A stretch of 21,205 nucleotides of DNA. Source: a virus. Shown in pieces: positions 9,634 through 16,139 of the stretch. The stretch covers positions 1 through 21,205 of the IMG/VR virus record IMGVR_UViG_3300017786_000182, one strand, 5' to 3'. Numbering within the stretch: position 1 is the stretch's first letter; each line of letters starts with the position of its first letter. The notes under the pieces were generated by a model. That model worked only from the letters and a program-made list of their open reading frames with translations, was not told where the DNA came from and did not search any database. The position numbers and the translations under genes are program-made.

Positions 9634-9699
9634 GAACCAATACCAGTTAGAATACATTATATATATAAAGGAAATGAACTAAACCAGCAGGTTATTGGT

Positions 9700-9730
9700 T
9701 TTATATCTAGTATTATAACATAGGTGTCAA
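9700..9730 (-). promoter_or_regulatory. Putative sigma70-type promoter(s) for the late operon
   Basis: Read on the minus strand, a perfect TTGACA (9730-9725) is followed 7 bases later by TGTTATAAT (9720-9712), an ideal extended -10 (TGnTATAAT). After a 19-base gap comes TATAAA (9705-9700). The first pair is too close to be one promoter, so I read this as an extended -10 promoter and/or a TTGACA-N19-TATAAA promoter. Both point at terS about 90 bases downstream. Confidence 0.5.
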
Positions 9731-9903
9731 CAACGTAGCATAGTTTTTACCCAGAAACCCATAGGATTTCAATTTTTTTAAAGGGTAGTTTATATATTAC
9801 TTAAAAGAAACGCGCAAAAAATCTGGACCCCCTCCCCCCTATGTGCTCCTGTGCGCGGCGAACGTCGGCAAAGGCAGGCAATCCGAGCTAAGCTACTATC
9901 ACT

Positions 9904-9913
9904 CAAGCACTTA
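9904..9913 (+). repeat. CAAGCACTTA direct repeat, copy 1
   Basis: A 10-base word repeated exactly at 10143-10152 in the same intergenic region. Copy 2 also supplies the right arm of an AAGTGC/GCACTT dyad (10129-10151). It is a possible protein-binding site. Confidence 0.35.
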
Positions 9914-10142
9914 GCTACATCTAGCTATCTGGCTACTAGCTAGGGCTGTCATCTAGCCCGCTTCAGCACTGGCATCAGCGCTCATGAGCTAATGATTTAT
10001 CCTGCTCGGCGGAAATGTATTCTCAGCACATCTCAGTGCAGTACATGCCATGCATTTAAGGGTTACAGCAGAGCTACAACGCATTACGTAAGTCGTTGAT
10101 AAACACAGCATTAGAAGATAACTATCACAAGTGCCTAATAAC

Positions 10143-10152
10143 CAAGCACTTA
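10143..10152 (+). repeat. CAAGCACTTA direct repeat, copy 2
   Basis: This is the second exact copy of the 10-base word at 9904-9913. It is followed by another dyad, AGCTA-ATTA-TAGCT, at 10162-10175. Confidence 0.35.
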
Positions 10153-10336
10153 ACGCTTGAAAGCTAATTATAGCTAATTTGCTCCGAACTATTGAAAAAA
10201 AGATGAAAATTTCTATTCACTGATATGCAATGGTTTACGACAGATTTTGTGCGCTCTAAAAATTATGTTATTGCATGTAGCTAAGATCTAGTCACCTTGA
10301 TTGGCATCGTTCCTTGACAGTCCAAATGCTACCGAC

Positions 10337-10523
10337 TCTGGTGAGATGCGCCAGATGGGTTTTCCGTCCGCAAGGACCTAAGGATCAGTAAGTGGAAAAC
10401 TGCTAGACGAAAGTCAGCTCGATGACGTAGTAAATGGGACATAGATTGGTAATGTAGCTCCACTTCTGGAACGGTTGACAGCCCGTGTAAATTTGAGGTC
10501 GAAAGACCTCTCCACAGATCACC
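10337..10523 (+). ncRNA. Structured 5' leader RNA upstream of the ArdC-like gene
   Basis: Several helices can be drawn without conflict. They are a 7-bp hairpin 10337-10343/10349-10355; a 7-bp stem GTTTTCC/GGAAAAC (10359-10365/10394-10400) enclosing a GTCC-GCAA-GGAC hairpin (10366-10377); GCT-A-GAC-GAAA-GTC-AGC (10402-10418); TCCA-CTTC-TGGA (10459-10470); and a perfect 6-bp GAGGTC-GAAA-GACCTC (10495-10510). Three loops are GNRA tetraloops, which is unusual for chance sequence. An alternative long-range pairing GTGGA/TCCAC (10392-10396/10511-10515) could compete. The element ends about 30 bases before the ATG at 10543. It matches no riboswitch, ribozyme or intron core that I can recall. It could be a regulatory leader or a free-standing RNA. 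Confidence 0.5.
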
Positions 10524-10542
10524 AATAAAATAGAAAAATATT

Positions 10543-11430
10543 ATGAAAAATAACAGCAAAAATGTATACGAAATCGTTACCGAACAAGTCATCGAAAAGA
10601 TCGAAGCTGGGAACCTAGCTCCATGGCTGAAGCCATGGAAGAGTTCAGCGCATCGACCTGCAAACCTAATCACCAAGAAACCATACAAGGGAATCAATGC
10701 CTTCCTGCTCTCATTCAATAACTACGATTCACCCTTTTACTTAACCTACAAGCAAGCCATTGCGAAAGGCGGAAACGTAATGAAAGGCGAAAAGTCCACC
10801 CTCGTCACATATTGGCAATTCCTCTACTTTAAGAATGAAAAGCTCCTGCCCAGTAAAATGCCAATCCCCGAAAAGGAGGCGATCGCGGACAAGAAAGTGC
10901 CACTACTTAAATACTACAGAGTATTCAATGTCGAACAATGCGAAGGCGTCGAATATCCTAAGATTGAAATCAAGGATTTGAACGAAAACGAAAAGCTCGA
11001 GGAGTGCGAAGAGGTTATTCAGGGAATGCCAAGTAAGCCAGAGTTCGAGTTCGGCGGAGATCGTGCATTCTACCGTCCGTCAGAGGACAGCGTAACAATG
11101 CCAAAGTTGGAGCGCTTCAACAGCTCAGATGAATACTACTCAACATTCTTCCACGAGCTAGCGCACGCTACTGGTCACGAAAGCCGCTTGAACCGCGAAG
11201 GCATCGAGAAGATCGCCGCATTCGGTGACGCAGTATATTCCAAAGAGGAGCTCGTCGCTGAGTTCACAGCCTGCTTCTTGTGCGGAGAAACTGGTATCCT
11301 GCAACGCACAGTAGATAACTCAAGCGCTTACCTCAAGGGATGGCTCAAAGCACTAAAGAACGATAGCAAGCTACTCGTCAGCGCCGCAAGCCAAGCTGAG
11401 AAAGCCGCGAACTTTATCTTAAACAGATAA
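10543..11430 (+). CDS. ardC: ArdC-like antirestriction protein (ssDNA-binding plus metalloprotease-like)
   Basis: This encodes 295 residues. The N-terminal domain (about 1-130) matches the ArdC/TraC N-terminal ssDNA-binding domain: VTEQVIEKIEAGNLAPWLKP, then KPYKGINAFLL, then KGGNVMKGEKST and YYRVFNVEQCEGV. The C-terminal zincin-like domain has HELAH at 204-208 followed by TGHESRLNRE, with E240 (ELVAEF) as the probable third zinc ligand. Plasmid ArdC coats incoming ssDNA and protects dsDNA from restriction. Being the first gene of the early operon fits a job immediately after entry. The start has no SD sequence; the context is ACCAATAAAA...AATATTATG, shared with the next genes. A two-hairpin element follows the stop. 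The domain call is strong; the antirestriction role here is inferred. Confidence 0.88.
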   Translation: MKNNSKNVYEIVTEQVIEKIEAGNLAPWLKPWKSSAHRPANLITKKPYKGINAFLLSFNNYDSPFYLTYKQAIAKGGNVMKGEKSTLVTYWQFLYFKNEKLLPSKMPIPEKEAIADKKVPLLKYYRVFNVEQCEGVEYPKIEIKDLNENEKLEECEEVIQGMPSKPEFEFGGDRAFYRPSEDSVTMPKLERFNSSDEYYSTFFHELAHATGHESRLNREGIEKIAAFGDAVYSKEELVAEFTACFLCGETGILQRTVDNSSAYLKGWLKALKNDSKLLVSAASQAEKAANFILNR

Positions 11431-11432
11431 AA

Positions 11433-11495
11433 CCACAGCTCCATAGCTATTAGCTATGGGGCTTTCTGGGTGTAAGCACTCCGCTTATAATTAAC
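11433..11495 (+). repeat. Two-hairpin intergenic element, copy 1
   Basis: A 63-base element follows the ArdC-like stop. Hairpin 1 is an 11-bp stem (11437-11447 with 11453-11463, one G-U pair, TATTA loop) followed by TTT, so it may act as a weak terminator. Hairpin 2 is GTAAGC/GCTTAT (11472-11477 with 11483-11488) with a 5-base loop. It is 57/63 identical to copy 2 at 11756-11818. Confidence 0.8.
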
Positions 11496-11522: not shown

Positions 11523-11753
11523 ATGGAAAAAACAAAAGAATACCAAGTTGTCACATACAAAACAGATAATGTCTTTGAAGTTAAAGTATCATTTAAAGGA
11601 GGAGGTCATCTGAATTGTGAAGTGAATACCTTCGGCGATGAACAGCAAGCTAAAGAGCACGCTAACTGGGCTATGTTTGAAAGCGGATACGCGGACAAAG
11701 TTGATTACGTCAGAGTAAATCACGTAATCTGGCACATCAAGAAAACAAAGTAA
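11523..11753 (+). CDS. Small unknown protein flanked by the duplicated hairpin element
   Basis: This encodes 76 residues (MEKTKEYQVVTYKTDNVFEV...VIWHIKKTK) with alternating polar/hydrophobic strands and one helix (DEQQAKEHANWAMFESGYAD), so probably a small alpha/beta fold. No catalytic motif is visible. The start follows AACCAACTAAATATTATG without an SD sequence. Near-identical 63-base elements immediately precede and follow the gene, suggesting that the gene plus element behaves as a cassette that arose by duplication or was inserted by homologous exchange. Confidence 0.7.
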   Translation: MEKTKEYQVVTYKTDNVFEVKVSFKGGGHLNCEVNTFGDEQQAKEHANWAMFESGYADKVDYVRVNHVIWHIKKTK

Positions 11754-11755
11754 TT

Positions 11756-11818
11756 CCACAGCTCCATAGCTATTAGCTATGGGGCTTTTGGGGTGTAAGC
11801 ATCCCGCTTACGATTAAC
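11756..11818 (+). repeat. Two-hairpin intergenic element, copy 2
   Basis: This is the second copy of the element at 11433-11495. Hairpin 1 (11760-11770 with 11776-11786) is identical, followed by TTTT. In hairpin 2 (11795-11800 with 11806-11811) the closing pair is G-C where copy 1 has G-U, and the loop differs at two bases. Stem pairing is kept while unpaired positions vary, which suggests selection on RNA structure. Confidence 0.8.
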
Positions 11819-16065: not shown

Positions 16066-16139
16066 GAGGGTGTAGCTCAGCTGGATAGAGCATCGGTTTT
16101 CTAAACCGACGGTCAGGGGTTCAAGTCCCTTCGCCCTTA
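16066..16139 (+). tRNA. tRNA-Arg (anticodon UCU)
   Basis: A complete 74-base cloverleaf fits. The acceptor pairs GAGGGTG with CGCCCTT (two G-U), T8 A9, D stem GCTC/GAGC, anticodon stem TCGGT/ACCGA with loop TTTCTAA (anticodon TCT), variable loop CGGTC, T stem AGGGG/CCCTT with loop TTCAAGT, and discriminator A. No CCA is encoded. UCU reads AGA (and AGG by wobble), both frequent in these genes. The tRNA ends 10 bases before the endonuclease VII ATG, so tRNA processing would define the 5' end of that mRNA. Confidence 0.93.

Follow-up and report, generated by a model that had tools for sequence, protein, structure and literature searches.

The leader of the rightward gene block in the virus record IMGVR_UViG_3300017786_000182, analysed here over a window of 21,205 nt (the whole stretch of DNA under study), carries a RAGATH-24 RNA followed by a divergent type-P1 twister ribozyme (Table 1). 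The constant linkage of the two modules at a near-fixed distance suggests that the virus cuts RAGATH-24 free from its messenger. We put at roughly 0.7 the probability that the twister would cut the early ArdC-like mRNA so as to set RAGATH-24 free as a small RNA, with RAGATH-24 as the product and the ribozyme as the maker of its 3' end, a reading drawn from sequence and predicted structure. What is new here is the constant pairing of RAGATH-24 with a twister, neither module being new in itself. We know of no function for RAGATH-24, and the Rfam description of the family states none. The available part of one account of bacterial and phage twisters leaves their purpose open and gives the reason for their gene associations as unknown (PMC10085705). 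The pairing merges these two questions of function into one, namely whether the ribozyme releases the RNA.

Table 1. Features of the leader and its first gene (window coordinates; paired strands separated by a slash).
Feature	Position	Strand	Basis or remark
RAGATH-24 RNA (RF03049)	10314..10442	+	Rfam 68.4 bits, E 2.5e-13; gathering threshold 45.3
RAGATH-24 outer stem	10320-10323/10437-10440	+	GTCC/GGAC
RAGATH-24 inner stem	10327-10332/10427-10432	+	predicted fold
RAGATH-24 hairpins (n=3)	10337-10355, 10358-10401, 10402-10418	+	predicted fold
Divergent type-P1 twister ribozyme	10444..10526	+	held-out covariance model R1, 63.1 bits, E 1.8e-14
Twister P1	10445-10449/10522-10526	+	
Predicted cleavage site U^A	10450..10451	+	position in twister consensus; UAA 10450-10452
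Twister P2	10453-10456/10513-10516	+	
Pseudoknot T2	5' half GC 10457..10458 with GC 10481-10482	+	paired in 21/21 relatives
Twister P3	10459-10462/10467-10470	+	
Twister P4	10471-10473/10484-10486	+	
Pseudoknot T1	5' half UGA 10476..10478, 3' half UCA 10519..10521	+	Watson-Crick in 51/51 loci
Optional twister P5 hairpin GAGGTC-GAAA-GACCTC	10495..10510	+	minimum-energy fold; third GNRA loop
ArdC-like gene	10543..11430	+	first in rightward block; PF08401 1e-30 (ArdcN), PF18818 3.2e-37 (MPTase-PolyVal)

An Rfam scan of the window returned two matches above cut-off, the RAGATH-24 RNA and a tRNA at 16066-16139. Genes to the left of the element run leftward and include the major capsid protein (SU10_MCP) as well as terminase and portal, which were named from their similarity to phage C75C1 and other phage records; those to the right run rightward and encode the ArdC-like protein, ERF and DnaB. 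Judged by this content of replication and early genes, the rightward block is probably early. The divergent layout is seen in the relatives as well, with no rightward upstream ORF of at least 90 aa in the 12 loci examined, in two of which the contig contains no ORF at all upstream of the element. Because the first gene after the element differs from phage to phage, the leader does not belong to ArdC in particular. A clear Shine-Dalgarno sequence was not seen in the A-rich leader of the ArdC-like gene, and no convincing promoter was found in the window, where the best -35/-10 score (7 of 12) lies near the shuffled mean of 7.2; the relatives' best scores, taken from 41 distinct upstream stretches, average 7.8 on the same scale, a weak excess over the 7.2 of mononucleotide shuffles. 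Two further features of the window deserve mention. Within the divergent intergenic region, 9780-9840 holds an AT-rich stretch followed by CCCCCTCCCCCC, as does the matching place in phage C75C1, in which loose patterns did not find the element (its terminase is 69.4% identical over 100%). A 68-nt repeat, 88% alike in its two copies (11428-11495 and 11751-11818), stands on both sides of a 76-aa gene; it comprises, in this order, a strong hairpin, TTTCTGGG or TTTTGGGG, and a further stem that may form a pseudoknot, and has no Rfam match.

In sequence and structure, the window element matches RAGATH-24 above the family cut-off, and nothing in it departs from the family; its relatives add long forms, several of them below the cut-off, and, in the loci found here, the constant twister linkage. 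The same fold is predicted without Rfam as the lowest-energy structure, in which the second hairpin is a GTTTTCC/GGAAAAC stem around a GCAA hairpin, as the original prediction had described, and the third carries a GAAA loop. The outer stem forms 4/4 pairs in all 51 loci with both strands (G-U allowed) through the combinations GTCC/GGAC, GTCA/TGAC, GTCG/CGAC and GTTT/AAAC, plus wobbles of GTTT or GTCT with GGAC, and the inner stem forms 5/5 pairs in 47 of these 51 loci and 4/5 in L032, L092, L104 and L118. Among 11 short-form sequences, 13 of the 29 predicted pairs change on both sides while still pairing in at least one sequence. Long forms are enlarged by a domain at the position of the first hairpin, and none of their 31 pairs covaries in the 15 aligned sequences, which are too similar to show it. 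A conserved GATGACGTAG lies close to the 3' side of the RNA, whose middle is freely replaced, giving cores of 79 to 261 nt. In two relatives (L089 and L090) a second start-like motif, TTCTTTCCTAGTCCACCTC, precedes the 3' part of RAGATH-24 by some 190-215 nt and may be an incomplete duplicate of the RNA's 5' end.

The second module is called a divergent twister on its anatomy and not as an Rfam match, because it falls short of the Rfam gathering threshold, which is a curator's cut-off and no anatomical feature. A permissive scan of 9650-10700 gave a match to twister-P1 (RF03160) at 10446-10503 with 20.2 bits (E 0.22) against a threshold of 67.2, the low score being due in part to the inserted P5 hairpin. 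Rfam twister-P1 matches in the relatives always lie just 3' of RAGATH-24 and score up to 54.2 bits (E 1.8e-9), so that no scanned relative reaches the cut-off; in one scan at E <=5 a match was present in 11 of 12 relatives, L063 having none. The covariance model R1, built from 21 relatives with the window left out, found a single site in the window (Table 1), and beyond it the expected loci and three weak matches in L106 (E 0.22-0.32).

Across the 21 distinct relatives (window excluded), 96.2% of cells are paired in the twister structure including both pseudoknots, against 75.5% in shuffled controls and 25-39% when the structure is slid by 1-3 columns, and 11 of 20 pairs covary; this test contains L063, which the MAFFT alignment misplaces around P2/L1 and which counts against the structure. 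P1, P2 and P4 are nested in twister order, covary (98.1, 90.5 and 93.7% of cells paired, respectively) and are also present in the window. P2 has 4/4 pairs in 41 of 51 loci and 3/4 in the other ten, which represent three sequence classes and include the window, with an A.C innermost pair. Pseudoknot T1, between L4 and L1, is formed by six sequence combinations over the 51 loci (34 distinct sequences), while for T2, between L4 and L2, the evidence is weak, one pair never varying and the other varying one-sidedly in the 21 relatives. The UAA occurs in the window and, without variation, in all 21 aligned relatives; as part of both the twister-only pattern search and the locus parsing, it is not independent in either. 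Long inserts at the place of P5 occur in 8 of 51 loci, with sequences unrelated between lineages.

A U-A cleavage site, the T1/T2 layout and optional P0, P3 and P5 stems characterise the twister in the accessible part of its description (PMC6154101). With type P1 (RF03160) our element shares P1, P2, P3, P4, T1, T2, the UAA and GC core and the optional P5; it differs in its score below the Rfam cut-off, in an L4 and L1 that depart from the consensus while keeping the T1 pairing, and in adjoining RAGATH-24. It belongs to a twister subfamily that the Rfam cut-off misses. Separately, L106 (three copies) and L122 contain twister-like elements in which P1 is a closed hairpin; these resemble the permuted type P5 and precede genes with Shine-Dalgarno-like AAAGGAG or GGAGG.

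To define the relatives, pattern scans of IMG/VR were cleared of chance matches, leaving 53 contigs with a RAGATH-24 3' strand beside TTGGTAA, or 54 loci with the window; "true" and "chance" were judged from the printed sequence, model scans and parsing. A twister follows the RAGATH-24 3' strand in 51 of the 54, at a spacing of 3-5 nt in nearly all loci, and the other three (L090, L092 and L095) have TTGGTAA and then an intrinsic terminator hairpin (folded for L090). The RAGATH-24 5' strand is absent from L053, L065 and L069, where the contig start is too close. Locus parsing demanded TTGGTAA and is thereby biased towards the twister, a bias that two scans avoid. A pattern for RAGATH-24 only gave 41 loci, five by chance and 36 true, the latter comprising 33 with a twister and three with a terminator. 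Conversely, a pattern for the twister only gave 40 loci: four by chance, the two twister-like cases without RAGATH-24 (L106, L122) and 34 true, every one of which has the RAGATH-24 3' strand directly upstream (both strands in 32, two at contig edges). Within this phage group, from which the patterns were derived, each module is therefore a predictor of the other. Other IMG/VR scans yielded 5 loci (2 chance), 1 locus (chance), 42 loci (29 true, 13 chance) and 5 loci (all RAGATH-24). Among annotated phages and plasmids we found no relative of the element; 19 pattern matches in GTDB genomes were judged chance on reading their sequences, none having a twister start or RAGATH-24 5' strand. The literature search returned no paper on RAGATH-24 or its pairing with a twister, but the founding papers lie outside the literature covered, so prior notice is possible.

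At the level of sequence and covariation, both structures, their near-fixed spacing and their constant pairing are established; from them we infer cleavage, release of RAGATH-24 and a 5'-hydroxyl mRNA. As the leader of the rightward block is transcribed, the twister would fold and cut at U10450^A10451. The 5' product would be RAGATH-24, a compact small RNA whose terminal AUUGGU would bear a 2',3'-cyclic phosphate, and the 3' product the early mRNA, whose 5'-hydroxyl end would resist decay that depends on a 5'-triphosphate or monophosphate and whose start codon would lie near a P1 dissolved by the cut. We regard RAGATH-24 as the probable functional product, and the twister as its 3'-end maker, because three loci swap the twister for a terminator after RAGATH-24. 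They give the strongest hint that what counts is a defined 3' end of RAGATH-24, although, being three loci from at most two lineages, they may reflect deletion of the twister and a first gene. More tentatively, RAGATH-24 could be a trans-acting phage small RNA of early infection that owes its 3' end to a dedicated ribozyme in the same leader, which would make it a family of ribozyme-matured regulatory RNAs across a phage clade; we hold this possible, though short of an even chance.

It is unlikely, though the likeliest of the alternatives, that processing of the mRNA is the main role: the twister would trim it so that it begins with a 5'-hydroxyl and its start region is open, and RAGATH-24 would cap the 5' end, as a structure that is thrown away or that protects until the cut. 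The start codon lies 66-76 nt after the UAA in most of 32 loci (searched from 40 nt on; L047 has no open frame in range), and further self-cleaving motifs occur in two relatives: a type II hammerhead directly after the twister (L093:3017-3077, minus strand; 47 bits against a cut-off of 37) and another about 270 nt beyond it, close to where the first ORF ends (L089:4-64, minus strand; 39.9 bits). These favour a further role, fragmentation of the mRNA, of the kind put forward for the hammerheads that phages carry near ardA; the published tandem hammerheads flank phage genes including ardA, and their cleavage was shown, according to the available part of that report (PMC3088659). Both systems place a self-cleaving RNA beside an antirestriction gene in a phage, but theirs is a hammerhead and ours a twister predicted from sequence, and ours has a conserved non-coding RNA partner where that part of the report describes none. 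Against processing as the main role, RAGATH-24 covaries in its own right and is kept without a twister in L090 and L095 (P1 4/4, P2 5/5 pairs).

Quite improbable is a composite switch, in which RAGATH-24 governs the adjoining twister in response to a ligand or factor that it senses. The short linker and strict pairing of the modules would suit it, but RAGATH-24 stands without a twister in three loci, and its variable middle leaves little constant pocket besides the core near GATGACGTAG. A chance fold or functionless leftover, to which only the ordinary folding energy of 10337-10523 could speak, is refuted for the structure by the covariation and the blind R1 match and hardly credible otherwise.

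The release of RAGATH-24 by the twister, our preferred reading, departs in several respects from the original prediction, which had placed a strongly folded, undescribed element at 10337-10523. A structured, conserved RNA in the leader that precedes the ArdC-like gene is borne out by the helices of the fold and by the covariation proposed as a check, which is strong in both modules, and the idea of a free RNA may hold for this leader. The proposed edges are too narrow, starting inside RAGATH-24 and stopping inside the twister. Both outer helices are thereby truncated, which explains why the folding energy there is ordinary (z -0.83, 40 of 200 shuffles as good), while that of 10314-10545 is lower than in most shuffles (z -2.08, 6 of 200); the expected helices do appear in the lowest-energy fold and centroid of this longer stretch, which agree on two adjacent modules, the second domain spanning 10445-10526. 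The statement that no riboswitch, ribozyme or other known RNA matches is refuted by RAGATH-24 and the twister, and the element is not undescribed, since the one is already in Rfam and the other a known ribozyme class. The three GNRA loops do exist, but in relatives the loops differ or the hairpins are missing; the proposed GGTGA/TCACC switch is likewise not conserved, its 3' half lying in twister L1/P1 with other sequences in relatives. Loops and alternative pairings are incidental. A riboswitch or GNRA-receptor reading was rejected, as the GNRA loops are not conserved, and so was an RNA on the reverse strand (z -1.80 at 10337-10523, no Rfam match on that strand there).

Finally, although none was found in the window, several relatives carry tmRNA-like genes of 66-68 nt (L002:2559-2625, L004:9182-9248, L041:8486-8552, L048:6767-6833, L062:3440-3506, L090:10052-10119, L095:1409-1474 and L111:11917-11982). 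They have an acceptor stem, a UCGAC core, one hairpin, a T arm and, in most, CCA, without a coding or pseudoknot part. All lie above the Rfam tmRNA cut-off, whereas ARAGORN calls no tmRNA and reads that of L041 as tRNA-Glu; it would be odd for a phage tmRNA to lack its message.
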